NCBI GenBank assembly: GCA_018661775.1
Contig: JABJHO010000046.1
Location: 1 to 48,379 of the forward strand
Length of the DNA: 48,379 bases
From: Candidatus Magasanikiibacteriota bacterium
GTDB taxonomy: Bacteria; Patescibacteriota; Patescibacteriia; Magasanikbacterales; UBA922
Direction: 5' to 3'
In this document: positions 1,980-23,886 of the stretch, piece after piece
How the letters are laid out: each line of letters begins with the position of its first letter
Position numbering within the stretch: position 1 is the stretch's first letter
Translations under genes and position numbers: made by a program
Notes under the pieces: model-generated
What the model was told of the DNA's origin: nothing
Seen by the model: only the letters and a program-made list of their open reading frames with translations
The model's database searches: none

Positions 1980-4010
1980 TTATTTGTATAGCATACCACC
2001 CCACTCAACAACCGTAAACCCGTTTCGTTTTGGTGTGGTAATGTGTAAAGGATTTACCGAAATAGGTTGATTAAGTGTTTTAAAGTTCATAAATACACGA
2101 ATCGTAGTATCTGGTTGTGGCGTTACTCGCAATGGCGCTGCTCTTTCAAAATCAGCCTGACTCGCAAACGTAACATACACATACGACTTTGTTGTCATTT
2201 TTGGTAACCAAAACTCAAGGAAATCAGCTATTTCTGTATCGTTCAACCCTAAACGAGTCAAGACCGTATACATCTCTTCTTCGACTTCATCTTTTGCAAA
2301 AACAAACCCTTCCTCTGGGAAACCAAAACCAGATGCATGCCCCTCCCAAAAGAGATACGGATACACGGTCTTGTTTTTTGGATAGTAAAGCTGACCATTT
2401 GTTTGTGCCACAACATTCCAACCACCTGTAGGATACTCTGGGTCAGTTACAGTAAACCCTTCATTTGGTGCCACCTGAACATTTACCTCTTGTGTTTTTT
2501 CAGGGTAGAGGTAAATTACTGGCTTCCCACACTCTGCAAGACTCTGTAAATCTGCATTAATATACACACGCCAATCACCCCAACGGTCTTGCCAAAAAAT
2601 GATGGGATGGTCTGACAAAAAGAGGGCATATTTGTCTTCCTCAGTCATGGCAAGAAGCTCTTTTTCTGAAAATATATCATCCTGTTTGTATCTATACAAA
2701 GCACCACCAAAACCCCAACTAAACACTTCTTTATAATACGCATTTGTTTCTTTGTTTGATAGTGTGAATATACCGTCTTCTGTACTGGTTTTTCCCACTT
2801 CCTCCAGCAAATCCTCGTCAAACCACGGTTTATTGTTTACCACCCCACTTAGTCTATTGATCCCAGAAGAACAGCCTTGTTTTATATCTCCACCCAGACG
2901 ATACTTCTGCTCAGTAGCCACCTCTGGCGCATCATGAAATGTAACTTGTGCCTCATAGCTACGAGCATACATCTTTTTTTCCTCCCCTTCTTCTGGATAT
3001 AGTAAAAACTCTGGCAATAAATCATAATAATGCACGGCACCATCAGCTTTTATAATATAAAATCCTACATCATCTTTGTAGATCGTACCCACATCAGGGT
3101 CTGTGCCTACCACCTGATCACCTGCTTTTTTCACTACCTTACTGTTTTTTACATCATATACACCACCAATATTATTCATGGTAGCTAGGCTAAAAGGTAA
3201 GGCAAGATGCTCAGATTCTTGGTACCCACCCTTAAACACAAGACGCTCCCCCTCGGTAAGAGATATCGTCATCCTTGTTTTCTGAATACTATCCAGGTTT
3301 GTAAAAAACGTCCCAACAAATAATGATGTATTAAGACATAGTTCGTCCGCCAAAACACTATCCCGCACCACAAAATCAGTCTTATTGTTTTGATCCAAAA
3401 TAGCCACAATTCCACTCCTATCTTTATCAAAATACACAAGCAGGTGATTAAAATTCATTACTACATCCATACCGTAAATTGGGTAAAAGAGGTGATACAC
3501 TTTTTCTCCACGTAATAATGCTGGTGTATCAACAGCACCCGCTTCGAATAAAAACACATCACTGTTTGAATCTTCATTGCAGTACGCATCCACATACCCA
3601 CTGCGCTCTTTTTTTGCCAAACTCACAAGTAGTGCATCTTGTTCTGCGACTGAAAGTGGAATAGCTCCAACATGCCAATTAATACGAATATCTTCACCAC
3701 GGGTAAGTTCAAGCATGTGCGGTAATACCACTTCAGACCCTTCTTTTCCTGGGTATAGATTTTTTTGCTTTTTAGGCGCCTCTTTACTTCCTGTCACATC
3801 AAACACCTCTACCTCGCTGATGTTGCTTATAGCGGCTGTATCTTGTACGGGTAAAGTAGCTTCCTCATAACGCAATACAGGTAATGACGAACTGCCTCTT
3901 TGTTGTAGCACCAATATAAGAAGTACCACTATAGTTGCCCCAATAACAAGCAAAGCCCCAAGCAAAAGGGTGTTTAAATTTGGTGACGCGCCAGTATTAC
4001 GTTCCTTCAT
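1980..4010 (-). CDS. Membrane-anchored secreted protein with KPVIYLYP domain
   Basis: 676 residues from ATG 4010, overlapping the end of the upstream Memo-CapA gene by 14 bp; a longer start at 4073 would overlap further and lacks support. Residues about 12-38 form one strong transmembrane helix after a short basic N-terminus, so the rest should be extracytoplasmic. The C-terminal 183 residues start with CGKPVIYLYPEK (about 494) and continue as a beta-rich module with GGW and LYYPKN motifs. I know KPVIYLYP as a recurrent motif of uncharacterised secreted proteins but can assign no activity. The middle is low-similarity and mostly beta. The operon context (CapA-like and CvpA-like neighbours) suggests a surface role. 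Confidence 0.75.
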   Translation of the reverse strand: MKERNTGASPNLNTLLLGALLVIGATIVVLLILVLQQRGSSSLPVLRYEEATLPVQDTAAISNISEVEVFDVTGSKEAPKKQKNLYPGKEGSEVVLPHMLELTRGEDIRINWHVGAIPLSVAEQDALLVSLAKKERSGYVDAYCNEDSNSDVFLFEAGAVDTPALLRGEKVYHLFYPIYGMDVVMNFNHLLVYFDKDRSGIVAILDQNNKTDFVVRDSVLADELCLNTSLFVGTFFTNLDSIQKTRMTISLTEGERLVFKGGYQESEHLALPFSLATMNNIGGVYDVKNSKVVKKAGDQVVGTDPDVGTIYKDDVGFYIIKADGAVHYYDLLPEFLLYPEEGEEKKMYARSYEAQVTFHDAPEVATEQKYRLGGDIKQGCSSGINRLSGVVNNKPWFDEDLLEEVGKTSTEDGIFTLSNKETNAYYKEVFSWGFGGALYRYKQDDIFSEKELLAMTEEDKYALFLSDHPIIFWQDRWGDWRVYINADLQSLAECGKPVIYLYPEKTQEVNVQVAPNEGFTVTDPEYPTGGWNVVAQTNGQLYYPKNKTVYPYLFWEGHASGFGFPEEGFVFAKDEVEEEMYTVLTRLGLNDTEIADFLEFWLPKMTTKSYVYVTFASQADFERAAPLRVTPQPDTTIRVFMNFKTLNQPISVNPLHITTPKRNGFTVVEWGGMLYK

Positions 4011-5880
4011 AGAATATATAATTACAGCTAAATGATTGTATATCATAGCCCAAAACATGACTCTTGTCAACAAAACCCCCCACCCATGATTCAGCTTTTT
4101 TTGGTGGCATTTGATACACTTGACTCAGTTCGGATTGCAGTGGAATAAGTGTAAAACACATTGCATGTTCTTCAAATACAAGCCCCACAGCAAGTCCGGT
4201 CTGTGTTTCCTCAGAAAAGTACTGGTCAAATACTGTATTACCCAAAGAATAGAAGATTGGTCTATTTTTGTAAATTTCCATTTCTTGTACAACATGCGGA
4301 TGATGTCCAATAACCGCGTCAGCTCCGGCATCTATAAACATGTGCGCTAAATGACGTTGTCTTGGGTGTGATACAGTTTTGTATTCAACCCCCCAATGAA
4401 TATTTACCACAACATGATCGGAATCCTCACCTGCCTGTGTAATAATGTCTTGTGCTTTTTGTTCATTAATCTGTGTATTTGTATCATTAAAACCCACAAA
4501 CCCTATTCGAGTATTTCCAACTTCACGCACCGTGTACGATGTAGTGTCAACGCCAAATTGTCGACCATAATAGGCAATACCTGCATTGTCTAAATGCCTT
4601 TTTGATTCTTCAAGCCCTGAGCCCCCCATATCTAAGCTATGGTTATTTGCAAGAGTAAATAAAGAAAAGTTATATTGTTTTAACATGGGGATAAGTGCTG
4701 GATCAAAACGAAACGCAATTGACTTGGTTGTTGGTACCCGTGACGCAACAAATGGGCCTTCGAGATTCCCGGTAACAATATCTACACCAGAAAAAAACCT
4801 CTCTTCTTTTCCAGCAAGTTTTTCAAAAATATATTCTTGTCCATGTTTTTTTATTTGTGTTGACACCCCTCTATTCAACATAATATCCCCAAAATGAAGT
4901 ATGCTTACAGCGCCTTTTTCTTCTTTCTCACCAAAAACAAAGTACGGCGAATAGTGACTTGTTGTCTCAAGAGTGTACGGTGCGTACCCTATATCTGCAG
5001 AATTTGTGTGTCGTTCATGTACCACTTTTTGTGTACCATAATGCTCCATCAACTGTAATACCATATAGACACTTTCTTGCGAATCTATTTCAAGTGTCTT
5101 GAGACGTTCATAATCAAAGGTTTTAATAATATGTTTTGCATGAACATCATGAAAGTCTGCCACATTCCTTGTTTGGTAATGTGAAAAATCAACAGAAGAA
5201 ACAAATACCGCATCTTTTGGCACCTGATCAATCAAAGCAGTAATAAGTGTGTCTAATGTACCAAGATCAACACCTTGCTCTACAATGATTGGTACAACAG
5301 TAGCATCTGGTAGTGATTTATTTATAAAAGGAATAACACTATATATACTGTGCTCTTCTTTGATTACATCTTCATCAATAGTGATAAGACCACGCTTCTT
5401 CAAAGCCACAATAACATCTTCATCGACCTCTACCACCCCATACGGTGTTTTCCAGTCACGCATCGTAGTAAACACCCGTTTTTGACCACGCGTAAAATGG
5501 CTTGGTCCAATAAGGATAATTGTAGACGGGTCTTGTGGAATTAATGCAGAAAAGAAAGCAGCAATGGTGTGACCTGAAACGAGATGATGCGGGACAATGC
5601 CACCTTTTATTGGTGTGTCGGACTGAAAAACCTCACCCTTTCCTTTGTCCCACATATCAAGCAACTCTTTGTCCCATGGGGCTGAGTAGTGAAACACCCT
5701 CTCTTTCTGTTTTGATACAACATGCTTTATTATATTCTCTGTTACGGTTTTTGGTATAAGAAGTACATCATGCATCACTACCCCCTTCTTGTACTCTGTA
5801 TTGTGTGAAAAAGAAAAAAAAGCGGTTGTGACAAAAAACACACTCGCGAGGCACAAAAGTACTGTATATCGAAATGCCAT
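3997..5880 (-). CDS. Memo-family / CapA-like metallophosphatase fusion protein
   Basis: 627 residues. An N-terminal signal anchor (about 5-24) is followed by two recognisable domains. Residues about 90-310 are a Memo/AmmeMemoRadiSam-B (DUF52) fold: GGIVPHH (93-99), GPSH (125-128) and SSVDFSHY (228-235). Residues about 326-600 are a CapA-type (PGA_cap) calcineurin-like domain: GDIM (331), GNLEGP (371), ANNH (411), HWG (495) and GHHPH (525). CapA proteins act in poly-gamma-glutamate capsule export. The Memo half lacks the Cys-Gly I would expect before the last helices (DSQESVYM there instead), so its metal chemistry may be altered. No AMMECR1 or radical-SAM partner is nearby. The fusion points to an extracellular hydrolase; its substrate is unknown. 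Confidence 0.85.
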   Translation of the reverse strand: MAFRYTVLLCLASVFFVTTAFFSFSHNTEYKKGVVMHDVLLIPKTVTENIIKHVVSKQKERVFHYSAPWDKELLDMWDKGKGEVFQSDTPIKGGIVPHHLVSGHTIAAFFSALIPQDPSTIILIGPSHFTRGQKRVFTTMRDWKTPYGVVEVDEDVIVALKKRGLITIDEDVIKEEHSIYSVIPFINKSLPDATVVPIIVEQGVDLGTLDTLITALIDQVPKDAVFVSSVDFSHYQTRNVADFHDVHAKHIIKTFDYERLKTLEIDSQESVYMVLQLMEHYGTQKVVHERHTNSADIGYAPYTLETTSHYSPYFVFGEKEEKGAVSILHFGDIMLNRGVSTQIKKHGQEYIFEKLAGKEERFFSGVDIVTGNLEGPFVASRVPTTKSIAFRFDPALIPMLKQYNFSLFTLANNHSLDMGGSGLEESKRHLDNAGIAYYGRQFGVDTTSYTVREVGNTRIGFVGFNDTNTQINEQKAQDIITQAGEDSDHVVVNIHWGVEYKTVSHPRQRHLAHMFIDAGADAVIGHHPHVVQEMEIYKNRPIFYSLGNTVFDQYFSEETQTGLAVGLVFEEHAMCFTLIPLQSELSQVYQMPPKKAESWVGGFVDKSHVLGYDIQSFSCNYIFYEGT

Positions 5881-8681: not shown

Positions 8682-11270
8682 ATGTTTTTTTTCATACTCC
8701 AATTTTTTTCAGCACCAAAAACGACACAGTTTCAACAATCCAGTAACTCTTTTTCAGATATACTTACGCCTGTATTTTTTTTCTACCTCTTCCTCGCAAG
8801 TGTGTGTTTTTTTTGTATTATCTATGGAAGAAAATTACTCAAAAACTATGTGAAAAAAAATAGCATGTTCAATCGCAATACCTTAAAAATAATGGTACCA
8901 AAAGAAAGGAAATCAGAGGGGCAGGGTGGGCAGGTTGGGCAAGAGGATCGACTAGAACAGATAAAAGAAGAAATAGGTATTACGGAAAGTTTTTTTTCTA
9001 CAATAGCCGGATTACGGGCTAACACAGGGTTGTGGCATTGGCTTACCGGCAGACAAGACTACTTTTCTTTTGAGACGGTTGTGCAAGATGGGAGAATCTA
9101 TTTTTATATTGATACTCCAAAGAAAAAAACTGATTTTGTGGAGCAACAAATTCATGCACAGTTCCCTAATGCCGACATAGAACGCATCACAGACTACAAC
9201 CTTTTTTCTGAGAATAGCCACATTCTTGGAGCATATTTATATGGTACAAAAAGAAAGGTATTTCCTATTAAAACCTATAAAACCATGGATTCAGACCCCA
9301 TGTCTGGTATGCTTAACGTACTAGCAAGAATACGAGAAGACAACAGTGCTGCTGCAGTACAATTTGTCGTTAGGAGTGCAAAAAAAACCTGGAGAAGTGA
9401 TGCAGTGCGTATTGTTCGTGAAGTAAAAAAAGGTAAAAAGTTTGAACAAGTTGCACAAGAATCAGGAGTATCACGATTCTTTAGAAAAACAGGCGAGCTG
9501 ATTAGCGAAAACTTTAGCAAACCACAAGAACAGATGGGAAAAGATACACATTACCAGCTCTCGGCAATGGAAGAAGAGATGCTAAAAGGTCTTGAAGAAA
9601 AAATGAGTAAAGGTGGGCTGGAAGTGTCTATTCGAATCATTACGGTGTCAGACAATGAAGTTATGAATAGAACCAACCTCGACAACATACTCAATGCATT
9701 TAGTCAGTACAATCTTTACAGGTATGGTAATGAGTTTCGCGCGGCAATACCTAGAAGACAAACGCAGATTATTAAAGATTTTATCTATAGATCTTTTAGT
9801 GAAAAATATAATATAATAAGCAATACCGAAGAGATTGCCTCTTTGTGGCACCCACCAATCCATTCCACAGAAGCACCAAACATTGCCTGGCTCACCGGAA
9901 GAAGCGCCCCTCCACCACCCAACCTTCCAAAAGAAGGGCTAACACTTGGGTATTGTGAATATCGCGGAACAAAGGAAGATGTAAAACTACAAACACCCGA
10001 CAGACAAAGGCATTTATATATTATTGGTAAGTCTGGAAGTGGTAAGTCTGTTACCATTGCAAACCTTGCCATGCAAGATGTAAAAGCTGGACACGGTGTC
10101 TGTATTGTTGATCCACACGGAGATTTGGTTGAAGAGGTTCTAGGGCATATACCAAAGGAGCGTGCTGATGATGTTATCATCTTCAACCCATCTGACACAG
10201 AGCGCCCAATTGGCATGAACATGCTCGAAGCCAAATCAAAAGACCAGAAAGACTTTGCGGTACAAGAAATGCTTGGTATTTTTTTGAAACTTTTTCCACC
10301 AGAAATGATAGGTCCGATGTTTGAACACACCATGAGAAATGTTATGCTGACTCTCATGGCAAACCATGAAGACCCTGGAACCATTATAGACATACCGAGA
10401 ATGCTTGTTGACGATGATTTTGTAAAAAGATATTTGGTAAATGTTACTGATCCGATTGTCCGAACATATTGGGAAAAAGAAATGGCACAAACAACACAAC
10501 ACACAAAATCAGAGATGCTTGGGTATTTGGTATCTAAAATTGGTCGTTTTGTGGGAAATGAAATGATGAGAAATATTATGGGACAACAAAAATCAGGCTT
10601 TGACTTTAGAGAAGTTATGGATAATCAAAAAATACTTCTTGTAAACCTTGCTAAAGGAAAAACTGGAGAGGTTAATTCTAAACTTATTGGACTTATTGTG
10701 GTGGCAAAACTCCAAATGGCTGCAATGGGGAGGGCCGACATGGAAGAACATTTGCGAAAAGACTTTTACTTGTATATTGATGAGTTCCAAAACTTTACAA
10801 CCGACTCAATTGCTATTATTCTTTCAGAAGCGAGAAAATATAGACTCGACCTTACTGTTGCTCACCAATATATGGGCCAACTTATGAATGACAAAGGCCA
10901 ACCAGAAATTCGTGATGCAGTACTTGGAAATGTTGGTACCATGATGGTCGGAAGGATTGGCCCAGATGACTCTGAAATTCTTGCCAAGGAGTTTGCACCA
11001 GTTTTTGGTTCTTTTGACTTACTCAATACACCACAATACTCGTTTTATTCAAAAATGCTTATAAGCAACCAAGCAAGCAAACCATTCCTTATGCGTGCCT
11101 ACCCTCCTGAAAAAGGTAACAAGGAGCTTGCTGACACCATCACACAGCTATCTCGTCTAAAATATGGACGTGACAAACGTATTGTAGAAGAAGAAATACT
11201 TGAGAGAACGAAGCTTGACGACCCAGAAACAAAAGGTATAGGTGGCGATCTTTCGGAAATGAGTCTTTAG
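8682..11270 (+). CDS. TraG/VirD4-like membrane ATPase (DNA-transport type)
   Basis: 862 residues. Two hydrophobic segments near the N-terminus (about 2-10 and 28-48) anchor a large cytosolic part. The P-loop motif GKSGSGKS (about 449-456) is followed by 'VDPHGDL', and Walker B is in 'LYIDEFQNF' (about 697-705) with a downstream 'AHQYMGQL' sensor. This is the HerA/FtsK-class layout of type IV coupling proteins (TraG/VirD4/TraD) that move DNA or protein-DNA substrates through the membrane. No relaxase or other VirB gene is in the window, so it may serve a type IV pilus-like or DNA-uptake system, as suggested for similar CPR genes. It overlaps the convergent ftsQ-like gene by 4 bp with no visible terminator. 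Confidence 0.88.
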   Translation: MFFFILQFFSAPKTTQFQQSSNSFSDILTPVFFFYLFLASVCFFCIIYGRKLLKNYVKKNSMFNRNTLKIMVPKERKSEGQGGQVGQEDRLEQIKEEIGITESFFSTIAGLRANTGLWHWLTGRQDYFSFETVVQDGRIYFYIDTPKKKTDFVEQQIHAQFPNADIERITDYNLFSENSHILGAYLYGTKRKVFPIKTYKTMDSDPMSGMLNVLARIREDNSAAAVQFVVRSAKKTWRSDAVRIVREVKKGKKFEQVAQESGVSRFFRKTGELISENFSKPQEQMGKDTHYQLSAMEEEMLKGLEEKMSKGGLEVSIRIITVSDNEVMNRTNLDNILNAFSQYNLYRYGNEFRAAIPRRQTQIIKDFIYRSFSEKYNIISNTEEIASLWHPPIHSTEAPNIAWLTGRSAPPPPNLPKEGLTLGYCEYRGTKEDVKLQTPDRQRHLYIIGKSGSGKSVTIANLAMQDVKAGHGVCIVDPHGDLVEEVLGHIPKERADDVIIFNPSDTERPIGMNMLEAKSKDQKDFAVQEMLGIFLKLFPPEMIGPMFEHTMRNVMLTLMANHEDPGTIIDIPRMLVDDDFVKRYLVNVTDPIVRTYWEKEMAQTTQHTKSEMLGYLVSKIGRFVGNEMMRNIMGQQKSGFDFREVMDNQKILLVNLAKGKTGEVNSKLIGLIVVAKLQMAAMGRADMEEHLRKDFYLYIDEFQNFTTDSIAIILSEARKYRLDLTVAHQYMGQLMNDKGQPEIRDAVLGNVGTMMVGRIGPDDSEILAKEFAPVFGSFDLLNTPQYSFYSKMLISNQASKPFLMRAYPPEKGNKELADTITQLSRLKYGRDKRIVEEEILERTKLDDPETKGIGGDLSEMSL

Positions 11271-12229
11271 TAGAAGTACACCTTTTCTTTCTGACGCACA
11301 TCGATAAAGGAAACTGGTTGAGAGAGTATTTTTTTGTATACAAATACCAAATCCGTTAGCTGCTCTTCGGCACTACCATCTATTCTTATCAAAATCACAC
11401 GATTATCTTTGGTTACCATATCCATGTTTCTACGATCTTTGTGTAATCTAAAGTACGCAATAGAAACCCCCAAATCTTGATCTAGGCGCTCAAACCACGT
11501 TATAATATTCACTACCGACTGCGGTGAAACAACTACTACCCGCTCCTCATTTTTTTTCACAACTGAGTGGCTAAATTCATCATACAAAATAGGATATTTT
11601 CCCATTTCTTTGTGTACACGCTCAGCATCAATGCGATGCTTTTTTTGTACCACAATACCCTGCTCCGTAGAACTAGGACTTACCACAGAAGGTGATGGGC
11701 CAAACCACTCATCTTCTCCCACATTACGAATATGTTCCACAACAGTACCGTCCAAACCAAGAAAACTATATGTCTCGCCGTTATCATAAATAATAGATGA
11801 TATTTTTTCTTCTACCACTATATTCAGTTTATCAGGAAAATCTTTTGTAACAGTTATATGTGCAATAGGAAACTTTTGTGACAACAACATCCCTACTTCT
11901 TTTTCACCAACCATAGAAAAACTACTTTTTGGTAAAAAGAAGAGCACCTTATAATCTATTATTCCCTCTGTAGCCGACAAAAAAGCCTGCTTATTAATCC
12001 GTTCAAGCCCAGAGACCGTTATCTGTGAAATACGAAAAAAGGGATGGTACAAAAAAATTCCAACCATACCAAAAACACACCCAAGAAGAATAGTGAGTAA
12101 TATAAAAAATCGTGTTGTTGTGTGTGCTGTTTTTTTTGATTTCCCGCGTCTATGTGAAGTGCTTGTAGTCGAGAAAGGTAAAACAACCCGAGAAGCAGAG
12201 TTCTGTCTCCTTTGTTTACTTTTACTCAT
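11267..12229 (-). CDS. ftsQ: FtsQ/DivIB-like cell-division protein
   Basis: 320 residues. A basic, polar cytoplasmic tail (1-40) is followed by one transmembrane helix (41-60) and a POTRA domain (about 66-135) beginning ITVSGLERINK and containing 'FPDKLNIVVEEK', the usual FtsQ pattern. FtsQ/DivIB bridges early and late divisome proteins and controls septal peptidoglycan synthesis. Position after femAB and the Mur ligase fits an envelope operon. The 3' end overlaps the convergent ATPase gene by 4 bp. Sequence identity in this family is always low; domain order makes the call good, though a SpoIID-type POTRA protein cannot be excluded. Confidence 0.82.
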   Translation of the reverse strand: MSKSKQRRQNSASRVVLPFSTTSTSHRRGKSKKTAHTTTRFFILLTILLGCVFGMVGIFLYHPFFRISQITVSGLERINKQAFLSATEGIIDYKVLFFLPKSSFSMVGEKEVGMLLSQKFPIAHITVTKDFPDKLNIVVEEKISSIIYDNGETYSFLGLDGTVVEHIRNVGEDEWFGPSPSVVSPSSTEQGIVVQKKHRIDAERVHKEMGKYPILYDEFSHSVVKKNEERVVVVSPQSVVNIITWFERLDQDLGVSIAYFRLHKDRRNMDMVTKDNRVILIRIDGSAEEQLTDLVFVYKKILSQPVSFIDVRQKEKVYFY

Positions 12230-12267: not shown

Positions 12268-13293
12268 TTAAAACCCTCTACGTACCCTTCTTATAGTCTC
12301 TATAATCCAATTTATATAATATTTTTTTGTAAGAGAAATATCCATACACGGTGCAAGATCTTTTTGTGACCCACCAAAACCCTGCTTAAAGTGTGTAATT
12401 CCTGAAAATGGGTGGGATCTTGGTGATCCTTTTGGTGCTACGCCCCAAAAATTATACCAAGGTATCCCCCGTTTTTTGACTTCTTTTATTACTTCCCACT
12501 GAAGAAGGTAAGAGGTTGGCAACCTTTTGTCTTGATTAAGTGAAGCGCTGTGCCTATAACATGCCATACCATTATAAAATATAATAATAGCCGAAGAATC
12601 TAACTTGCCGTCTGGTAAATACCCTTCAAATATACACGCTTTCCCCTCTTTGGCAAAAATAGTAAATTCACTATCAACAAATGATCGCGAGAATCTATGA
12701 AAATTATGTCTTTTGGCCACCACATCATGCATATCATTGAGCCGAGCAAGTGCAGCGGCTGAAGTGGTTTGTTGTATAGTAATCCCCTGCTTTTCACAAC
12801 GTCGAATAAGATTTCTATGGTTTTTTTTCATGTCAGAAAGAAGTATTGCTTCTGTTTTTTTGGCATCCAAGAGCCAGGTATTTTCTGCCAACACGTGCAT
12901 TGGTGCCTTTTTAGCACCCCATGTTTTAAGCGCTTTGTACACAACATCTGTATCTTCCACATACGGACTGAATCGTATAAAATCATACCCACGCTTCTTA
13001 CCAAAAACCTTCATATACGCCATAAACGCAAGCCCCACATCTTTGTTGTGGTAATCTATTACTGGCCCATACGGAAGAAGCAAAAAAGAGCCTCGTTTTG
13101 CATGCACAGACAACACCAACGAGCCCCCAACCAACGTGTTATCGTAATACACACCGATAATCCAAAAATCTTCACCAGTTTTTTTATGCACTTCACCCGA
13201 CAGTGCTGATTGTACAAAAAGAGCACTGTCTTGTTTTGATAAAAATATTTCCCACTCCTTTGGTGACACATCTTCTCTTATTGTATACGTCAT
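12268..13293 (-). CDS. FemAB-family aminoacyltransferase
   Basis: 341 residues of the FemA/FemB/FmhB (GNAT-fold) family, which adds amino acids from aminoacyl-tRNA to the peptide side chain of lipid II or peptidoglycan. Visible signatures are 'LLLPYGPVID' in the first GNAT half, 'NLIRRCEKQGITI' in the linker, and 'PTSYLLQWEVIKEVKKRG' with 'YNFWGV' and 'KQGFGG' in the second half. The coiled-coil tRNA arm of staphylococcal Fem proteins is absent, as usual in the short bacterial branch. It starts inside the degT stop (ATGA overlap at 13290-13293), so translation is coupled. It probably makes the cross-bridge of a Gram-positive-like wall. Confidence 0.9.
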   Translation of the reverse strand: MTYTIREDVSPKEWEIFLSKQDSALFVQSALSGEVHKKTGEDFWIIGVYYDNTLVGGSLVLSVHAKRGSFLLLPYGPVIDYHNKDVGLAFMAYMKVFGKKRGYDFIRFSPYVEDTDVVYKALKTWGAKKAPMHVLAENTWLLDAKKTEAILLSDMKKNHRNLIRRCEKQGITIQQTTSAAALARLNDMHDVVAKRHNFHRFSRSFVDSEFTIFAKEGKACIFEGYLPDGKLDSSAIIIFYNGMACYRHSASLNQDKRLPTSYLLQWEVIKEVKKRGIPWYNFWGVAPKGSPRSHPFSGITHFKQGFGGSQKDLAPCMDISLTKKYYINWIIETIRRVRRGF

Positions 13294-14525
13294 ATTGTAT
13301 CAGTTATACATGTGAGTATCTTTCTCACTTCCTTTTCTGTAATACCACTATGTGTGGGTAAATTTACTACTTGTGTTGCAAAAAGTTCTGCACGCGGACA
13401 TGAACCCGCAACATACTCAGAATGCCTCAGGTCAACATCTTTTGGCGCAACAACTGTTGTATACCAATCACCTAATACAATACCCCTCTTTTTTCCTTCT
13501 GCAAGCACTGCTGATTGTTTTTTTGTGAGCAATAAATATCGTAACGGTACATCTTCGGTGTGTTTAACCTGAGAGAGAGTAATTGTATTAATCGACTGCA
13601 ATCCTTTTGTGTACTGCGTCGCAATAGCTTGCCTATGAAGATTCACCGCGTCTATGTTTGCTAGCTGTCCTAATAAAATATGCGCAAGGGCGTTAGGAAA
13701 TGTTGTTTGTGTATACCCGTCAACTTCTCCTTGTTTTTCTTTTTTACTTATTACCAGCGGTGTCATGCCTATAGTTTTAGATAAAAAAAGTAGTATTTTT
13801 CCCACATACAGACGATAACAGAATTTACCCAATGGAAAGTAGAGGTACTGAAACAAATATTTACCAACCGACACACAGGTTGAGGAAGGAAGTGACTCTT
13901 GGTATTGGCGCACTTTTGCAGAAAGGTCATCTTTTTTAGTTATGGCAACACCACCTCTTCCGCAAGAAAGTGGTTTGTCAGAACCAAAGCTAAACATGGC
14001 AGCATCAGCAAACGTCCCGAGTAGTTGTCCATTATGTCTTCCACCAAAAACATGTGCACAATCCTCAATAGTATACACACCTTTCTTCTTGGCAAAAGAC
14101 ATAATAGCTTTCACATCAGCCGCTGCACCAAACGTATGTTGTATAATAATAGCCTTTGTCCGAGAAGAATATTTTTTTTGCATATCCGCAACATCCATAT
14201 TCCCATCATCTCCAATATCCACAAAAATTGGTTTGGCCCCGGTATACTTAATAGCATTTACCACAACCACACAAGTAAATGCCTGTAGCAACACCTCATC
14301 ACCCTTTTTTACACCACCAGCACACAACAAAGCACACAGTGCAGTTCTTCCAGAATCAAATGTTATCGCCTGAGCACCCAAAAAATATGCAGAAATCCTC
14401 TCCTCTACCAACCGTACATACTTGCCCGAACACACACGAAACCATTTCCATGGTAAAAAAACATACGACACAGCTATGCCAATGTCTTTAATGGTAGTAT
14501 TTGAAGAAAATCCTGTAAAAATCAT
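13290..14525 (-). CDS. DegT/DnrJ/EryC1-type PLP aminotransferase
   Basis: 411 residues, fold type I PLP enzyme of the sugar aminotransferase family. The Schiff-base lysine is K184 in 'FSFGSDKPLS' followed by 'GRGG', the PLP-ring aspartate is D155 in 'TIEDCAH', and the N-terminal cofactor loop is 'FDSGRTAL' (56-63). These enzymes aminate UDP- or dTDP-4-keto sugars for surface glycans. No sugar dehydratase lies beside it; its neighbours are a membrane Mur ligase and FemAB, with which it shares an operon, so the product may be an amino sugar used in the envelope. The N-terminal 30 residues are unusually hydrophobic (VSYVFLPWKWF), as in membrane-associated DegT paralogues. Confidence 0.9.
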   Translation of the reverse strand: MIFTGFSSNTTIKDIGIAVSYVFLPWKWFRVCSGKYVRLVEERISAYFLGAQAITFDSGRTALCALLCAGGVKKGDEVLLQAFTCVVVVNAIKYTGAKPIFVDIGDDGNMDVADMQKKYSSRTKAIIIQHTFGAAADVKAIMSFAKKKGVYTIEDCAHVFGGRHNGQLLGTFADAAMFSFGSDKPLSCGRGGVAITKKDDLSAKVRQYQESLPSSTCVSVGKYLFQYLYFPLGKFCYRLYVGKILLFLSKTIGMTPLVISKKEKQGEVDGYTQTTFPNALAHILLGQLANIDAVNLHRQAIATQYTKGLQSINTITLSQVKHTEDVPLRYLLLTKKQSAVLAEGKKRGIVLGDWYTTVVAPKDVDLRHSEYVAGSCPRAELFATQVVNLPTHSGITEKEVRKILTCITDTI

Positions 14526-14551: not shown

Positions 14552-16156
14552 TTATACCACGCCCAACTCTTTCATTACACTTACCGGCATGCGATTCTCA
14601 AGTAAAATAACCACATCTTTTTCTTTCAAAGATTTAATATATGCCAGAAGATCTTGTGGATTATCTTTCAAAGACACTTGGGTGTGATATTTTTCTACTA
14701 TACCGCGCTGTAGCGGAGCAAAAAAATCTTTTGTAATCACAACCAACCCATCTGCCACAAAAGAAATTTCACCTCCTATCTCCTCATGTAGTATATCACT
14801 CCGAGAACCCAACTCTAGCATACCTCTTGTAATAACAATCCGCCGCTTTTCTGTCGGAAATTTTGCCAATACATCAAGTGCGCTACGAAAACCATTTGGA
14901 TTTGAATTATAACTGTCGTTCACAATAGTTGCATTGCCGTAAGGAAAAATACTCAGAGAACCATGTACTGTAACAGGAAGAGAGGTTCCTTGCTTTTCTA
15001 TTTCAGCTATAGAAATATTAAGATATCTCGCAACAAGAATAGCTGGGGCAATATTAAATGCATGATGTGCGCCTATAATACGCGTATGTATTTTTACCTC
15101 TTTTTTATCTGCCAATTCCCAAACAAATTTTGTATACTTGAGCGTGCTATCAATTTTTACAATACGACATGAAATGTCTACACTCTCAGACGTCCCAAAT
15201 GTCTGTATATTTTTACAAGAGAGTGTGTGTACCAACCCAACACAGTAAGAATTGTCTGCGTTGGTAACCACAAGGCCGTCTTCTGGAATAGCTCGCAAAA
15301 GCTCATACTTTGCCTGCTGTGTTTTCTCAATACTCCCAAAAAGTGATACATGTTGATCATTTATAGCCGTAAGTATCCCAACTAGTGGTTTCACCATATC
15401 ACACACAATCGCAATCTCCCCCATTTTATATGCTCCCATCTCACAAACAAACACATCATACCCCGAAAGATCATGTTGTAAAATAAATTTTGCTATACCA
15501 ATGTCCGTATTAATATTTTTTGGAGTTTTTATTACATTTTTGTTGCAACGTAGTATGTGATCCAAAAACTCTTTGACAGATGTTTTTCCATAACTCCCAG
15601 TAACCCCAATCACTAAAAGATTTTTATATCCCAACATTTTTCTTTTTGCCAAAAAAATGACATATCGCTTCAGTATTTTTGTTGGCATATAGCTTAAAAA
15701 AACAACCGTGCTTAAAATTACAAAACGTAATAATAAGAGCAATAGTAACACCTCCACATCTCCAAAAAACCAAACAATCCCAACCTCAAGAGTAAGCGAT
15801 CCGAGTAGTATGCTCATCGCTTTAATAGTTAGTGTTGGTCTACGAAATCTCTTTTTACACACATGAACAACCCCGACAAATACATCGGCAAGCAAAATCA
15901 CAAAAAGTATATACAGAGCTGTCGTAAACGTATTTACGGGCAACAGAAAAAAGAGAAGGATAATACACAAAGAACGTAACATTACGGGATACTGGTATAC
16001 AAATTCCTTTCCTTGTTTAGTAGAAAGAAAATCACTAAAAATATCAAAACGATATTCTTTGAGCTGCCAGATATAACAATACCTACTGTATTCAAAAAAA
16101 GCACTGATTAGCCACAACACACCTATGTAGAAAAAAAGAGGATTGGTAAAAATCAT
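14552..16156 (-). CDS. Membrane-anchored MurF-like ligase
   Basis: 534 residues. The first 165 carry about five hydrophobic segments (about 5-22, 60-75, 78-98, 112-130, 136-156) where MurF normally has its UDP-binding domain. The Mur central domain follows: ATP loop GVTGSYGKTS (184-193), 'TPKNINTDIG', 'CEMGAYKMGEI' and 'TNADNS'. The C-terminal ligase domain has 'VNDSYNSNPNG' and 'MLELG', both MurF-like. MurF adds D-Ala-D-Ala to UDP-MurNAc-tripeptide in the cytosol. Loss of the nucleotide-binding domain and gain of a membrane domain suggest a lipid-linked substrate. Its operon neighbours DegT and FemAB would fit side-chain chemistry on a lipid carrier. Confidence 0.85.
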   Translation of the reverse strand: MIFTNPLFFYIGVLWLISAFFEYSRYCYIWQLKEYRFDIFSDFLSTKQGKEFVYQYPVMLRSLCIILLFFLLPVNTFTTALYILFVILLADVFVGVVHVCKKRFRRPTLTIKAMSILLGSLTLEVGIVWFFGDVEVLLLLLLLRFVILSTVVFLSYMPTKILKRYVIFLAKRKMLGYKNLLVIGVTGSYGKTSVKEFLDHILRCNKNVIKTPKNINTDIGIAKFILQHDLSGYDVFVCEMGAYKMGEIAIVCDMVKPLVGILTAINDQHVSLFGSIEKTQQAKYELLRAIPEDGLVVTNADNSYCVGLVHTLSCKNIQTFGTSESVDISCRIVKIDSTLKYTKFVWELADKKEVKIHTRIIGAHHAFNIAPAILVARYLNISIAEIEKQGTSLPVTVHGSLSIFPYGNATIVNDSYNSNPNGFRSALDVLAKFPTEKRRIVITRGMLELGSRSDILHEEIGGEISFVADGLVVITKDFFAPLQRGIVEKYHTQVSLKDNPQDLLAYIKSLKEKDVVILLENRMPVSVMKELGVV

Positions 16157-16164
16157 AAAACGTC

Positions 16165-16890
16165 TTACAAAAGTATATTTTGCAAAATATCAACAAATGC
16201 TTTTTTCTTGTGCAAATGCAAGCCATGTGTACCCCCTTCTACAATATGGAGCTGTGCATTTGGAATTTCTTCTGCAGTTTTTTTTCCATACCGTAGTGGT
16301 GTGTGTCTATCTTTCTCCCCCCAAACAATATCGGTATGTACAATAATTTTACACAAAATATCTGAAACATCCTCTCGTACCACCTTTTTATAAATCTCTC
16401 TTTTAACGCCACGACTCTCTTCATAATCAGAAGAACCTAAACAACGATAGACTACTTTTTTAACATACCTCGCCCTGCTCTTTAGTATCGGAAAAGTTAA
16501 CATGAAAGCAAGCATCTTTGCAATAATACCAAAAAGTGTTCTTTTAAAATAGCGCTTTGGGCGATAAATTGCAGCACCACTAAGAATAAGTCGCTCACAC
16601 ACCTCCGGATGATGCGCCACCAGATATGCCGCCACCTGTCCGCCAAAAGAATGGCCCAAAATCATAACCCTATCACCCTTTATGTGTGACATTTTGTTTT
16701 TTACAAATTTTGCATACTCTTTTACACCCCACACATCTGTTGGGCAAGATGTTTCACCAAAACAAGGTAAATCTAAAACGTGTACATCCACGTCAGGTAT
16801 GTGTGATGACAAAAAAGACACAAAGCCTTCCCAAGTTTTTTTACTCCCACCCCACCCAGGAAGAATAAAGAGTATCTTTTTTTGACTCAT
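16165..16890 (-). CDS. Alpha/beta-hydrolase
   Basis: 241 residues with a standard alpha/beta-hydrolase core. The nucleophile is S81 in GHSFGG, the acid is the aspartate in 'WGEKDRHTP' and the histidine is in 'VEGGTHGLH'. An oxyanion region 'PGWGGSKKTW' lies near the N-terminus, and a helical cap (about 105-180) is basic. No signal peptide. The start codon overlaps the serS stop (ATGA at 16887-16890), so translation is coupled. The substrate cannot be read from sequence; the family includes lipases, esterases and C-C hydrolases, and the neighbouring envelope genes make a lipid or ester substrate plausible. Confidence 0.85.
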   Translation of the reverse strand: MSQKKILFILPGWGGSKKTWEGFVSFLSSHIPDVDVHVLDLPCFGETSCPTDVWGVKEYAKFVKNKMSHIKGDRVMILGHSFGGQVAAYLVAHHPEVCERLILSGAAIYRPKRYFKRTLFGIIAKMLAFMLTFPILKSRARYVKKVVYRCLGSSDYEESRGVKREIYKKVVREDVSDILCKIIVHTDIVWGEKDRHTPLRYGKKTAEEIPNAQLHIVEGGTHGLHLHKKKAFVDILQNILL

Positions 16891-18182
16891 ACCATTTTTT
16901 CCTTTCTCATATATGGTTGCAATACTTTTGGTATAACAATACTTCCATCTTTTTGTTGAAAATTTTCAATAATAGCAATAAGAATACGACCAATACCAAA
17001 GGCGGTTGCATCGTTCATATGCACAAAATTCTTTTCTTTTGTGCCTGTCCGAACATACCTTGTGTTCAGTCTTCTCGCCTGAAAATCAGTCATATAATCT
17101 GCGGTATGTGTTTCTCTAAATGTATTTTGACTTGGAATCCAGCATTCTATATCTATTGCCCTAAAATCTGCTTTTCCACCCATATCTCCGGTACATTTTA
17201 ATACCACCTGGTGATGAATACCAAGCTGTTGGACCAAATATTCTTGTATTGCAACCAAAAGCTCTTGCTCTACCAACCCTTGCTCTGGCGTGGTAAAACA
17301 TTCCATTTCTAGCTTATCAAATTGATGGCGGCGCAAGATTCCTGAAGTATCTTTTCCGTAAGTTCCAGCCTCTCTTCTAAAGGAAGTAGAATACCCGATA
17401 TAACGAATTGGTAAATCTTCTTCTTTAATTATTTCATCCATATGAAGGGGGCCAAGTGTATGTTCTGCACTTCCTACAAGTAAAATATTATCTTTTTCAA
17501 AATAGTATCTATCGTCAATCGGATCAAACCTATCCATTTTCTTCATTACTTCATCTCGGCACATTACAGGAGTAATCGCAGGTATAAATGGTTTTTCACT
17601 ACCACTTCCTACTTTTTTTGCCAAAGTGCTTATTATTTTTGTGTCAGTCAGTGTTTGCATTACAAAATCAATAAGAGCAAACTGCAGCAACGCAACATCC
17701 CCAAAAAGATAGTTAAATCGTGAACCAGAAATTTGTGCTGCCTTTTGTGTATCTATATTCTTACCGCACACATCCATGTGATTTTTTGGTGTAAAGTCAA
17801 ATTCTGGTTTTTCTCCAAATGTTCTTAACACAAGGTTTTCTTCTTCATCTTTTCCTTCTGGAGTATCTTCTGATATAACATTAGGAACTTGGTACATAAG
17901 CACAAAGAACTGATCTTCGACTTCTTTAAATTTTGCTTCAATTGCTTGGGTTTCTTGTTTTATATTTTTTCCTTCTTCTAATTGCTCATCTGTTGGCTTC
18001 TTACCCTTCATTTTTGTATTTAATTCATTTTTCTGCGCTCGGATATCATCTAATTCTTTTTGTAATGTATTTTTTTTAGCATCAAGAAGAAGAAGCGTGT
18101 CTATATCACAATCCAGACTCTTGCGTGTTACGGCTCTTTTTACCTCTGAAGCATTGTCTCGTATATACTGTATGTCTAACAT
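16887..18182 (-). CDS. serS: Seryl-tRNA synthetase
   Basis: 431 residues, normal length for bacterial SerRS. Residues about 25-105 form the long antiparallel coiled coil that grips the tRNA-Ser variable arm (leucine and lysine/glutamate rich). The class II catalytic domain shows motif 2 'FRREAGTYGKD' and a motif 3-like 'GIGRILIAIIENF'. It charges tRNA-Ser with serine for translation. It begins 4 bp after the HAM1-Nudix gene and overlaps the hydrolase gene by 4 bp, all within the lysS operon. The start is ATG 18182 (MLDIQYIRDN, the usual SerRS opening). Confidence 0.96.
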   Translation of the reverse strand: MLDIQYIRDNASEVKRAVTRKSLDCDIDTLLLLDAKKNTLQKELDDIRAQKNELNTKMKGKKPTDEQLEEGKNIKQETQAIEAKFKEVEDQFFVLMYQVPNVISEDTPEGKDEEENLVLRTFGEKPEFDFTPKNHMDVCGKNIDTQKAAQISGSRFNYLFGDVALLQFALIDFVMQTLTDTKIISTLAKKVGSGSEKPFIPAITPVMCRDEVMKKMDRFDPIDDRYYFEKDNILLVGSAEHTLGPLHMDEIIKEEDLPIRYIGYSTSFRREAGTYGKDTSGILRRHQFDKLEMECFTTPEQGLVEQELLVAIQEYLVQQLGIHHQVVLKCTGDMGGKADFRAIDIECWIPSQNTFRETHTADYMTDFQARRLNTRYVRTGTKEKNFVHMNDATAFGIGRILIAIIENFQQKDGSIVIPKVLQPYMRKEKMV

Positions 18183-18186
18183 AAAA

Positions 18187-19263
18187 TTATAATTTATATT
18201 CTTTTATTTTTTTCTCGACAAGCATGGTTATTTCTACCATTCTTTCTTTACTGTCTATAAAATCATATTCTACCAGTTCTTTTACGGTAACCCAGCGTGA
18301 TTCTAACACCTCGTTGTCGCTAATCACTCCGTCTCCTGATTCCACAGTACACAGGTGCGGTATAATATATAACTGATACCTGTGCAATAATTGCTCGTCA
18401 CCTTTTTCTCTTTGATTAACATATATTTTACCAAGAGGTGCAACAATACTTACAGTATACCCTGCCTCTTCCCACACCTCTCGAACAAGATTCTCCTCTA
18501 TAGTTTCTCCGTAATCCACAGCACCACCCGGAAACTCCCATTTTCCATGAAAATCGGGATTATGTGGATCATTTCTTTTATTAATCAATATTTTACCACC
18601 TCGAAAAAGAATGCCATTGGCCAATATAATGTGCTTTGGGCTCGTAATATCTGCAATATGGTATTTCATTTTTATAAGTGCTTTTCCTCTGTGACTTACA
18701 CTGTTTTTTTCCTGCAAAGACATTTCTGCATAAGTTTTTCCTGTTGCCTCAACATATCGATCATCTTTTTCAACAAAAAAGAGCCTATTGTAACCATAAG
18801 CAGTTATCACACCACTCTCTACCACCTCTTCCATAATTCGACCCATGGTTTCACCAAAAGTAGTAAAGAAAGTGAGCTCATTTGGATTATATAACGCCAA
18901 ACATACGCGGAACTGGGCAGTGCGATCGTCACCTGACACACCTTCTAGTTCTGAAAGAAGTGTGTCACACTGCACTTCACTAGTTTCCCCAACCCGTGCA
19001 CTTTTTACACCTGGCCAACCATCTAGCGCATCAACAAAAAGACCAGAATCATCAGCCAATGTTAAAAAACCAGTTTTTTCTGCATAATATCTTGCCTTAA
19101 GCATTGCATTCGCCTCAATAGTGTCACCCGTTTCTTCTGGTGCTGCAATATCTTGCGCTACATCACTCAGTGTCAAAATATCCACCGAAAGATCATCAAA
19201 AAAATGGTGAATCTCTGCAAGCTTTCCTTTGTTTGTCGTGGCAATCAATAGTTTCTGTTTCAT
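18187..19263 (-). CDS. HAM1/RdgB-Nudix fusion (nucleotide-pool sanitiser)
   Basis: 358 residues carrying two complete house-cleaning enzymes. Residues 1-200 are a HAM1/RdgB inosine/xanthosine triphosphate pyrophosphatase: TTNKGK (9-14), LADDSG (69-74), 'PGVKSARVG' (84-92) and the C-terminal 'SHRGKAL'. Residues about 205-358 are a Nudix hydrolase with an intact box (247-269: G-x5-E-x7-REVWEEAGY). HAM1 removes deaminated purine NTPs; MutT-type Nudix enzymes remove oxidised ones. Joining them would couple two arms of the same defence. Both active sites look intact. The start overlaps the upstream gene's stop by 4 bp. Confidence 0.92.
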   Translation of the reverse strand: MKQKLLIATTNKGKLAEIHHFFDDLSVDILTLSDVAQDIAAPEETGDTIEANAMLKARYYAEKTGFLTLADDSGLFVDALDGWPGVKSARVGETSEVQCDTLLSELEGVSGDDRTAQFRVCLALYNPNELTFFTTFGETMGRIMEEVVESGVITAYGYNRLFFVEKDDRYVEATGKTYAEMSLQEKNSVSHRGKALIKMKYHIADITSPKHIILANGILFRGGKILINKRNDPHNPDFHGKWEFPGGAVDYGETIEENLVREVWEEAGYTVSIVAPLGKIYVNQREKGDEQLLHRYQLYIIPHLCTVESGDGVISDNEVLESRWVTVKELVEYDFIDSKERMVEITMLVEKKIKEYKL

Positions 19264-21841: not shown

Positions 21842-21870
21842 AGTATACCGCATATGAATACAACTGTCTA
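21842..21870 (-). promoter_or_regulatory. greA promoter
   Basis: Minus strand TAGACA (21865-21870), 17-bp spacer, TATACT (21842-21847). The -35 begins with the TAG stop codon of the PBP2 gene. The leader to ATG 21787 is about 48 nt without a Shine-Dalgarno. Confidence 0.6.
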
Positions 21871-23886
21871 GGTATCTGCTTTTTTATATTCAAACCACCA
21901 ACGATAGAACTTTTCTGCTATAGGAACCGCCACTTTCGACCCCCCCTCACCTTCTTCTACAAGAATAGTTACCACAACCTCAGGATTCTCAAAAGGAGCA
22001 AAAGAAGTAAACCACGCATGGTCATCCTTGTTCTTATTCCACTGCGCTGTCCCTGTCTTACCAGCCACATGTACCGGGAGTGTATTAAGTCGTCTACAAG
22101 ACCCCGAAAGCACACAATCACGCATACCAAGGCGCACTGTAGAAAAATGATTTTCTGCTATAGGAACTCGCTGAACAACCTGAGGAGAAATAATATCTTC
22201 TTTTTTTGTCACAGGATCAACTATTTTTTCTACCACTCGTGGCACAAAAAGTGTCCCCTTGTTTGCAACTACCTGTGTCATTGCATTAATTTGCAATGGT
22301 GTAACCAAAACATCACCCTGTCCTATAGAAAGATTATACGTATCCCCCACATACCAGCGCTCTCCTTTGGTGTCTTTTTTCCAATCCTTTGAAGGGAGAA
22401 ATCCGGGTGACTCACCAGGTAAATCTATCTGTAGTTTTTTTGCAAAACCAAACCATTTCAAATATGATGTTATTGTGTCCACACCCATTCCGGTAAAATC
22501 TTTATACCCACCCCCGATATAATAATAAAACGTGTTCACAGATTGAGCCAAAGACTTACGTACATTTGTTACACCATGTCCACCACCGCGCCAATCAGGA
22601 AAAATCCACTGACCAACACTAATACCACCCGTACTTAGAAAAGTTGTATTTGGTGTAATAATTCCCTCCTCTAGTGCACTAGCAGCAATAGCCATTTTAA
22701 GTGTTGACCCAGATGGGTAAAGTCCTGATATTGCACGATTAAATAATGGCTTATTGATATCTCGTATATATTTTTTATATCTACCATACCCTATGCCACC
22801 AGAAAAATCATTATTATCAAAAGCAGGAAGACTAACTAATGCAAGAACATCTCCAGTCTTTGGGTCCGACACAATACCAACTCCCCGCTCTTTCTGGAAC
22901 TCCTCAAACACCTCCCACATAAACCCCTCAAGCGCTTCTTGCATTTTTATATCTATAGACAAAAATAAGAGCCTTCCTGGTATTGGTGCCTGTTCTGCAA
23001 TTTTGGTTTGCTGCCTCCCGTATGCATCTACCTCCACCCTCTTTTTTCCATATACCCCTCTGAGCACTGATTCATACTCTTTCTCCACCCCAACCTTTCC
23101 CAAAAAATCTGAGGGAAGATATCCCTGTTTATACAACACGTCAAGTTCGTCCCTATCAAGCTTCCCTGTATACCCCAAAATATGAGACATGGATAATTTT
23201 TTATTTGTAGATTCACCAACCAAACCCTGGGACTCAACCCCCTTGTGTATATACAGACGCTTACTCCCTCGCTGCACATGAATACCAGGCAATTCTGCCG
23301 CTGCTATTTGCAAACGCAACGCTGTTTGATAATCAATATTTTCTTTAATAACAATAGATTCTAGACTATATGCACCATATTCTGTCAGCACCTCATCAAT
23401 ATACATTTTATCCTCTCCCGTAAGTTGTGCAAGCCTCTCCACAACCTTCTTTTTTTGCTCTTTCCCTTTTGGTAAATCTTGAGGAATTACTGCCAAAGCA
23501 AAACTAGGTACATTCTCCGTAAGCTGAACCCCATTCCTGTCAAAAATTAATCCGCGTTCCGCCGGTATTGGTATATTGCGCTCTTTGTTTCCTCTCGCGA
23601 GCATCGCATATGACTCACCTTTAACAAGCTGCAGATGGCCCACCCGCGCGGTAATCGCCAAAAAAATAATAGAAAATATAACACGTAAAAAAAGAAGGGT
23701 TGTCTTTTTAACACTTGACCCAACATACTCCCCGCTTTGTATCGCCGCAACCTGCTTGCCTGTTTTTTTATCAAACGTAAAAGATTCTTCTACCCAACCA
23801 TATCGCTGCGCTGTTTTTTTACACAAAATACCCCCTGAACGAGCAAGGGTACCAAAAATATTTTGTTTTTCTTTCCTGTTTTTCAT
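21868..23886 (-). CDS. mrdA: Penicillin-binding protein 2 (rod-elongation transpeptidase)
   Basis: 672 residues. One transmembrane helix (about 62-80) follows a basic tail; then the PBP dimerisation/pedestal domain with 'AERGLIFDRNG', then the transpeptidase domain. The active-site STLK is in 'YPSGSTLK' (near residue 392), SxN is 'SVN' in 'AQSVNTFYYY', and KTG is in 'VAGKTGTAQW'. Class B PBP2 cross-links peptidoglycan during side-wall elongation with RodA and MreB. It is the last gene of mreB-mreC-mreD-mrdA and overlaps mreD by 4 bp. No rodA follows, since greA is next. The N-terminal cytoplasmic tail is longer than in E. coli PBP2. Confidence 0.95.
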   Translation of the reverse strand: MKNRKEKQNIFGTLARSGGILCKKTAQRYGWVEESFTFDKKTGKQVAAIQSGEYVGSSVKKTTLLFLRVIFSIIFLAITARVGHLQLVKGESYAMLARGNKERNIPIPAERGLIFDRNGVQLTENVPSFALAVIPQDLPKGKEQKKKVVERLAQLTGEDKMYIDEVLTEYGAYSLESIVIKENIDYQTALRLQIAAAELPGIHVQRGSKRLYIHKGVESQGLVGESTNKKLSMSHILGYTGKLDRDELDVLYKQGYLPSDFLGKVGVEKEYESVLRGVYGKKRVEVDAYGRQQTKIAEQAPIPGRLLFLSIDIKMQEALEGFMWEVFEEFQKERGVGIVSDPKTGDVLALVSLPAFDNNDFSGGIGYGRYKKYIRDINKPLFNRAISGLYPSGSTLKMAIAASALEEGIITPNTTFLSTGGISVGQWIFPDWRGGGHGVTNVRKSLAQSVNTFYYYIGGGYKDFTGMGVDTITSYLKWFGFAKKLQIDLPGESPGFLPSKDWKKDTKGERWYVGDTYNLSIGQGDVLVTPLQINAMTQVVANKGTLFVPRVVEKIVDPVTKKEDIISPQVVQRVPIAENHFSTVRLGMRDCVLSGSCRRLNTLPVHVAGKTGTAQWNKNKDDHAWFTSFAPFENPEVVVTILVEEGEGGSKVAVPIAEKFYRWWFEYKKADT

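Follow-up and report, generated by a model that had tools for sequence, protein, structure and literature searches.

What does a Mur ligase do when the domain that should hold its nucleotide-linked substrate is missing and membrane helices stand in its place? This question is raised by a single gene, here denoted TM-MurF, in the window, a stretch of 48,379 nucleotides that is one whole contig of a Candidatus Magasanikiibacteriota genome of 981 kb, rated 100% complete (the host genome). Among the matches listed, the nearest named relatives by TM-MurF are five records of Candidatus Magasanikbacteria, with 57 to 44% identity. The gene and its parts are laid out as follows:

14552..16156, minus strand: TM-MurF, 534 amino acids with an ATG start, five membrane helices and the ATP-binding and C-terminal domains of MurF
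15629..16156, minus strand: membrane domain of TM-MurF, residues 1-176, with no Pfam match in the window copy
16007..16066, minus strand: first loop, residues 31-50, with a QLKEYR motif, placed inside by the positive-inside rule
15818..15850, minus strand: second inner loop, residues 103-113 (RRPTLTIK)
15029..15604, minus strand: Mur_ligase_M domain, with the P-loop at residues 184-193
14603..14935, minus strand: Mur_ligase_C domain (Pfam)
14591..14593, minus strand: codon of Arg522

The initial annotation took the ATP-binding and C-terminal domains to be MurF-like, and Pfam, TIGR01143 and fold comparison all bear this out. Pfam assigns residues 185-376 to Mur_ligase_M (2e-34) and 408-518 to Mur_ligase_C (1.3e-11), with no match upstream of residue 185 at E<=0.01. 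The top of the 22 NCBIfam models matching at E<=0.01 is TIGR01143 (murF), which aligns residues 180-519 with model positions 74-403 of 418 at 232 bits; the curated cut-off of 288.6 is not reached, and the N-terminal part of the model is unmatched. An AlphaFold2 model of the whole protein (pLDDT 93.7, pTM 0.89) has MurF structures as its top Foldseek matches (4qf5, TM-score 0.71 by target length) and aligns with the MurF structure 3zl8 in VIA-align at Z 38.4 over 374 residues (rmsd 4.5). By sequence and by fold alike, the nearest solved structures are MurF.

The N-terminal UDP-MurNAc-tripeptide binding domain, however, is absent, and about residues 1-178 are membrane helices and loops. Hydropathy analysis places five hydrophobic segments ahead of the P-loop (2-20, 56-74, 79-97, 113-131 and 136-154), and the three stretches that the resulting topology predicts to lie inside are rich in Lys and Arg. 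The segment count alone is weak evidence for a transmembrane domain, because shuffles of the same 178 residues, averaging 3.1 segments, reach up to 5; across 54 aligned relatives, the count is 4 in 30, 5 in 20 and 3 in 4. Conservation is the stronger evidence: the match takes in the N-terminal part in 34 of 37 genomes of the host's family, Q31 and Y35 of the first loop are invariant in 54 aligned proteins, and T110 of the second inner loop is nearly invariant in the aligned relatives. The AlphaFold2 model has helices at 6-32, 56-71, 77-100, 111-131, 134-142 and 144-175, plus two short ones in the first loop. Hydropathy, conservation and structure prediction thus uphold the original description of about five transmembrane helices in place of the UDP-MurNAc binding domain. 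Compared with known folds, the membrane domain alone gave nothing convincing (best Foldseek E 0.96, best VIA-align Z 3.1), which does not show that the predicted fold is new; in 52 aligned copies of the N-terminal part, ten Pfam families were matched, each in one copy and none in more than one.

The possibility of a chance open reading frame or an assembly artefact is ruled out by conservation of the membrane form in 34 of 37 genomes of the host's family. As for a viral origin, a search of viral contigs that finds close relatives only recovered none, and there was no viral fold match at E<=0.001.

The host genome encodes three Mur_ligase_M proteins, all identified: TM-MurF, a MurC/Mpl-like ligase that scores 272.6 bits to Mpl and 272.0 to MurC, both below the cut-offs, and a MurE-like ligase that has no UDP-binding domain and scores above the MurE cut-off (293.9 bits against 257.3). 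The P-loop of the latter (L058:2472-3848, contig C8) lies at residue 41. Neither a second MurF nor a MurD was found among the three, which rules out, for this genome, an accessory enzyme working beside a soluble MurF. Thus, of the initial interpretation, the architecture, the link to DegT and FemAB, and, as an inference, the membrane substrate hold, but the accessory role does not. The alternative offered there, namely that this is simply the MurF of its lineage, is right in that there is no other MurF, but is too weak a description, given that Ddl was not found and that a residue of the C-terminal motif differs.

In the same 34 family genomes, the match extends over the N-terminal part (in pieces in G009); the exceptions are one with a short MurF only (G003), one with none (G018) and one with a weak match only (G026). 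In G018, one of the three Mur-domain proteins (L096) reads, from its sequence, as a folylpolyglutamate synthase. One family genome (G013) encodes a short MurF-like protein in addition to the membrane form, and weaker second MurF matches are listed for two more (G008 and G036). The short MurF of other families in the order has 24-28 residues ahead of the P-loop in the seven proteins read, and MurE-like proteins start near the P-loop (28-70 residues) in 18 of 18 genomes read. In a FastTree phylogeny, the membrane form is one clade (support 1.0) within the MurF part of the tree and the short MurF groups with 13 of 19 canonical MurF (0.97), the other inner supports being low (0.38, 0.59). It therefore appears likely, although not certain, that the UDP-binding domain was lost twice separately, in the membrane form and in the short form. 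The short MurF adjoins a penicillin-binding protein (PBP) in 7 of 8 loci, and this PBP is about 25% identical to that of the window.

The genes around TM-MurF present the other facet of the problem:

21868..23886, minus strand: PBP with dimerisation and transpeptidase domains; SxxK, SxN and KTG read in the translation
16887..18182, minus strand: seryl-tRNA synthetase, upstream in a conserved gene row
16165..16890, minus strand: alpha/beta-hydrolase with a GHSFG motif, a frequent partner directly upstream of TM-MurF
13290..14525, minus strand: DegT-family PLP aminotransferase with conserved motifs QHTFG, EDCAH and DK
12268..13293, minus strand: FemAB-family transferase
11267..12229, minus strand: FtsQ-like POTRA protein, the last in the conserved gene row

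In a PDB search, the DegT protein matched sugar aminotransferases mainly over residues 26-208; its C-terminal half has conserved motifs of its own and a hydrophobic stretch around 227-248. The FemAB protein weakly matches lipid II:glycine glycyltransferase, and FemAB-type enzymes use aminoacyl-tRNA. The catalytic motifs of the PBP suggest that cross-linking would be kept. The alpha/beta-hydrolase adjoins the membrane MurF also in many other Patescibacteria. Elsewhere in the window, single frames join Memo-like and PGA_cap (capsule synthesis) domains (3997-5880) and a Ham1-type pyrophosphatase with NUDIX (18187-19263; only about 200 amino acids in some relatives), and a conjugation-type (TraD/VirD4-like) ATPase (8682-11270, plus strand) lies on the strand opposite to its neighbours.

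The proposed link to DegT and FemAB extends well beyond the window: both genes follow TM-MurF in 11 of 12 family loci and in 13 of 20 loci from Patescibacteria outside the Magasanik group. In 35 further Patescibacteria loci, DegT is next in 18 and Ddl, the enzyme that makes the dipeptide normally added by MurF, adjoins in 11; none has both, and the six with neither show contig ends, uncalled frames or other genes. Of 50 Patescibacteria genomes that encode a membrane-type MurF, DegT without Ddl occurs in 37, Ddl without DegT in 12 and both in one, none lacking both, at thresholds of E<=1e-25 for DegT of the window type and E<=1e-45 for Ddl; DegT is usually followed by FemAB. The family cut-off is missed by the Ddl of the one genome with both (G344) and by three of the 12 other Ddl proteins. 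A few incomplete DegT matches (G262, G356) could represent sugar aminotransferases of a general kind. Fisher's test of DegT against Ddl gives 1e-10, a value that overstates the evidence, the genomes being related and the DegT type nearly one clade. The same searches in 17 genomes with canonical or short MurF found Ddl only in six, DegT only in three (canonical), both in one and neither in seven, so that genomes without Ddl do not always have DegT instead. In the host genome, the search for Ddl found none: the top hit, at 28 bits, is to a protein of the RimK-type ATP-grasp kind, and a divergent Ddl is rejected on this ground. Only one of 28 family genomes, G029, has Ddl over the cut-off, and it is also the sole one among the 12 family loci that lacks DegT, FemAB and the hydrolase, with no DegT match elsewhere in the genome.

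The change of partner is accompanied by a change in the enzyme itself, at position 522 of the C-terminal motif, which, judging from MurE and MurF structures, we take to lie close to where the incoming amino group binds. Asp occupies this position in 14 of 15 Ddl-group proteins from Patescibacteria, the lone exception being that of G029, with Arg, and in all 50 relatives from outside the phylum; Arg occupies it in 45 of 51 DegT-group proteins, that of the window included, this group being assigned by exclusion, with neither gene tested for one locus (L110). The alignments comprise the window with 28 of 30 loci (A1; the truncated L019 left out, and L007 being the window itself), with 53 of 76 eligible loci (A2) and with 51 (A3). 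Because the DegT-type proteins come close to forming one clade in the FastTree phylogeny, the partner swap and the residue change may be one event.

Outside the family, a scan of named genomes with the TM-MurF alignment found the membrane type in Patescibacteria, Bacillota and a few others among the best 80 loci, with more in existence. In the 53 of these loci that lie outside Patescibacteria, an alpha/beta-hydrolase is present in 43 and Ddl within the fetched stretch in 44; Pfam checks covered four of the Ddl copies and one hydrolase, and contig ends cut some loci short; the typical row in Bacillota is alpha/beta-hydrolase, membrane MurF, Ddl. In 27 of 32 TM-MurF genomes outside Patescibacteria (completeness not given), membrane-type proteins are the only matches above 200 bits; of the other five, four also encode a canonical MurF that clears the cut-off, and the fifth has a full-length match that, at 230 bits, does not. 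Of 119 genomes from the phylum of Lachnotalea glycerini, in a sample drawn evenly except that it includes L. glycerini itself (G059), 113 have a MurF over the cut-off, five the membrane type only (G059 among them) and one a truncated match; going by match range and frame length, none of the 113 has a membrane-type match listed. From these membrane-only genomes, it can be argued that TM-MurF would functionally replace canonical MurF. In Patescibacteria, a MurF-like protein is matched at 1e-45 in 102 of 136 genomes (G299 and G100, the same genome, counted once). Judged by match range and frame length, with the sequences read for part of them only, six of these are canonical, 39 are of the membrane type (five with a second, short form) and 57 are others, in which the N-terminal part of the model is absent from the listed stretch; a few proteins of these classes score over the cut-off when the full frame is taken with neighbouring stretches.

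Taken together, these observations favor, with a probability that we put at about 0.55, the view that TM-MurF is the MurF of its lineage rebuilt as a membrane enzyme that acts on a lipid-linked muramyl peptide. Like MurF, the enzyme would spend ATP to extend the muramyl stem peptide at its end by a small group that carries an amine. What would differ is the acceptor, picked up at the inner side of the membrane and most probably attached to lipid I or lipid II by then, after the MraY step, with the five helices and the positively charged inner loops standing in for the UDP-binding domain. The architecture, the single MurF of the host genome, the partner swap, the residue change and the lack of the genes in question under the models searched are observed; we infer the lipid-linked acceptor, the order of the MraY and MurF steps and the identity of the added group; a lipid-linked acceptor is the simplest reading because the UDP-binding domain is gone and the protein is in the membrane. 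The group added in Bacillota and in part of the Patescibacteria would be D-Ala-D-Ala supplied by Ddl, whose gene is usually a neighbour. In the branch of the window, where Ddl is gone, DegT and FemAB are in its place and the charge of the motif residue is changed, the added group is probably different or otherwise sourced. The suggestion is thus that the last step of stem-peptide synthesis takes place on a membrane-bound precursor rather than in the cytoplasm. The earlier expectation that the enzyme should meet its substrate at the membrane gains, by analogy, a precedent in MurT, which has no UDP domain and for which the authors of PMC6113224 argue that, the substrate being lipid II, the domain would not be needed and would likely clash with the membrane.

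Several observations pull against this reading. Membrane anchoring alone does not show that the acceptor is lipid-linked, and the short MurF, with about 25 residues before its P-loop and no UDP-binding domain, indicates that the domain can be lost without a gain of helices. The membrane form coexists with a canonical or short MurF in some genomes (four of the 32 outside Patescibacteria, over the cut-off, and five of the 39 within). G029, with Ddl and Arg522 yet without DegT and FemAB, speaks against a strict link between partner and residue, and the transpeptidase of the PBP argues that an end resembling D-Ala-D-Ala persists.

A rival reading is an ordinary MurF on a tether, which would join D-Ala-D-Ala to UDP-MurNAc-tripeptide and be held by its helices near MraY for direct hand-over of the product, with Ddl-less genomes scavenging D-Ala-D-Ala from hosts or neighbours. 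In many Bacillota, TM-MurF is the sole MurF found, with Ddl adjoining, and the weaker matches there that begin at model position 1-2 are taken as canonical MurE, so that UDP-tripeptide should form; in the host genome, the Mpl/MurC-like ligase would suit scavenged peptides. Against this, the UDP-binding domain is wholly gone, the conserved residues of the membrane part fall in loops predicted to lie inside, which a plain tether would not need, and the Ddl-less branch shows the change between Asp and Arg. We regard the tethered enzyme as possible but rather unlikely. Distinctly less likely still is an accessory role, in which a Mur-type ligase would work with DegT, for an amino sugar, and FemAB, for an amino acid, in modifying some other lipid-linked envelope glycan instead of the stem peptide. 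The resemblance of the N-terminal half of DegT to sugar aminotransferases, the weak glycyltransferase match of FemAB and the failure to find Ddl in the host genome speak for such a pathway; against it, the enzyme is the sole MurF of that genome, is also the sole MurF, paired with Ddl, in many Bacillota genomes, and shares its gene row with the PBP and FtsQ.

Other steps of stem-peptide synthesis seem to be altered as well. MraY and MurB are present in the host genome, where alanine racemase was not found with TIGR00492 and glutamate racemase gave no match with TIGR00067; in the 19 family genomes tested, the former is present in three and the latter is over the cut-off in none, with weak matches in two (G002, G022). 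Between MraY and the MurC/Mpl-like gene of the host (L057:5846-6538, contig C56) lies an arginyltransferase-like gene (ATE_C, PF04377, 6.6e-8). In families f1 and f8, such a gene near the MurC-like gene is separate in 14 of 15 genomes and fused in one, G029, where the two form a single 688-aa frame (L074:3948-6014). The stretches retrieved around the MurC- and MurD-like genes of three genomes from families f2, f5 and f6 did not show it; in these genomes, the second such ligase reads as a putative MurD, and glutamate racemase is present in both of the two tested, in one below the cut-off. Gene order and the one fusion offer a lead, suggesting that a tRNA-dependent step in stem-peptide synthesis might replace MurD, and the position of the arginyltransferase-like gene beside the MurC-like gene hints that tRNA-dependent enzymes could replace further steps. 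A broader scenario for this order of Patescibacteria, in which the steps that handle D-amino acids have been replaced, an aminoacyl-tRNA-dependent enzyme of the arginyltransferase type standing in for MurD and glutamate racemase, and the membrane MurF, DegT and FemAB standing in for soluble MurF and Ddl and finishing the peptide on the lipid carrier, is doubtful.

In the usual scheme, as given also in the introduction of PMC6113224, all four Mur ligases are cytoplasmic and act ahead of the lipid step. If the membrane MurF acts as proposed, two core steps of peptidoglycan synthesis would not follow the same order in all bacteria, and this is testable in cultured species: Lachnotalea glycerini and Alteribacillus persepolensis have the membrane MurF as the only MurF found. 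The replacement of Ddl by DegT and FemAB is, moreover, a concrete lead on the wall composition of the little-cultured Patescibacteria. PMC8651080 suggests that the CPR may use D-Ala-D-Lac or D-Ala-D-Ser ends; such ends misfit the host genome because no Ddl-type ligase was found there. We found no description of a membrane MurF, or of a MurF without the UDP-binding domain in Patescibacteria, in the titles and abstracts listed from open-access PubMed Central. A survey of Mur-domain proteins names twelve members, with no membrane MurF in the sections available (PMC11915815); a MurF tree of Erysipelotrichales is accompanied, in the sections available, by text with no mention of membrane helices (PMC12786226).

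Among known systems, MurF itself (TIGR01143; PDB 3zl8, 4qf5, 1gg4, 4cvk) shares with TM-MurF the ATP-binding and C-terminal domains, the motifs and the occurrence of one per genome. It differs in having the UDP-binding domain where TM-MurF has five membrane helices, in a KGSR-like motif where the C-terminal domain of TM-MurF ends in LLENR, and in that Ddl was not found in the host genome. The short MurF of other families of the order and phylum resembles TM-MurF in the missing UDP domain and in its descent from MurF, but has no membrane domain (seven read) and groups with most canonical MurF in the tree. CapB/PgsB, the poly-gamma-glutamate synthetase, is a Mur-type ligase said to carry N-terminal membrane helices, but no such model is among the 22 NCBIfam matches of TM-MurF, which is nearest to MurF in sequence and fold. 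MurT, which together with GatD forms the lipid II isoglutaminyl synthase, works in amidation, whereas none of the nine TM-MurF neighbours scanned is GatD-like; TM-MurF has Mur_ligase_C and no DUF1727 match at E<=0.01, and we know of no membrane helices in MurT. Nonetheless, MurT is a Mur ligase without a UDP-binding domain, and its substrate is linked to lipid, as would be expected for that of TM-MurF.
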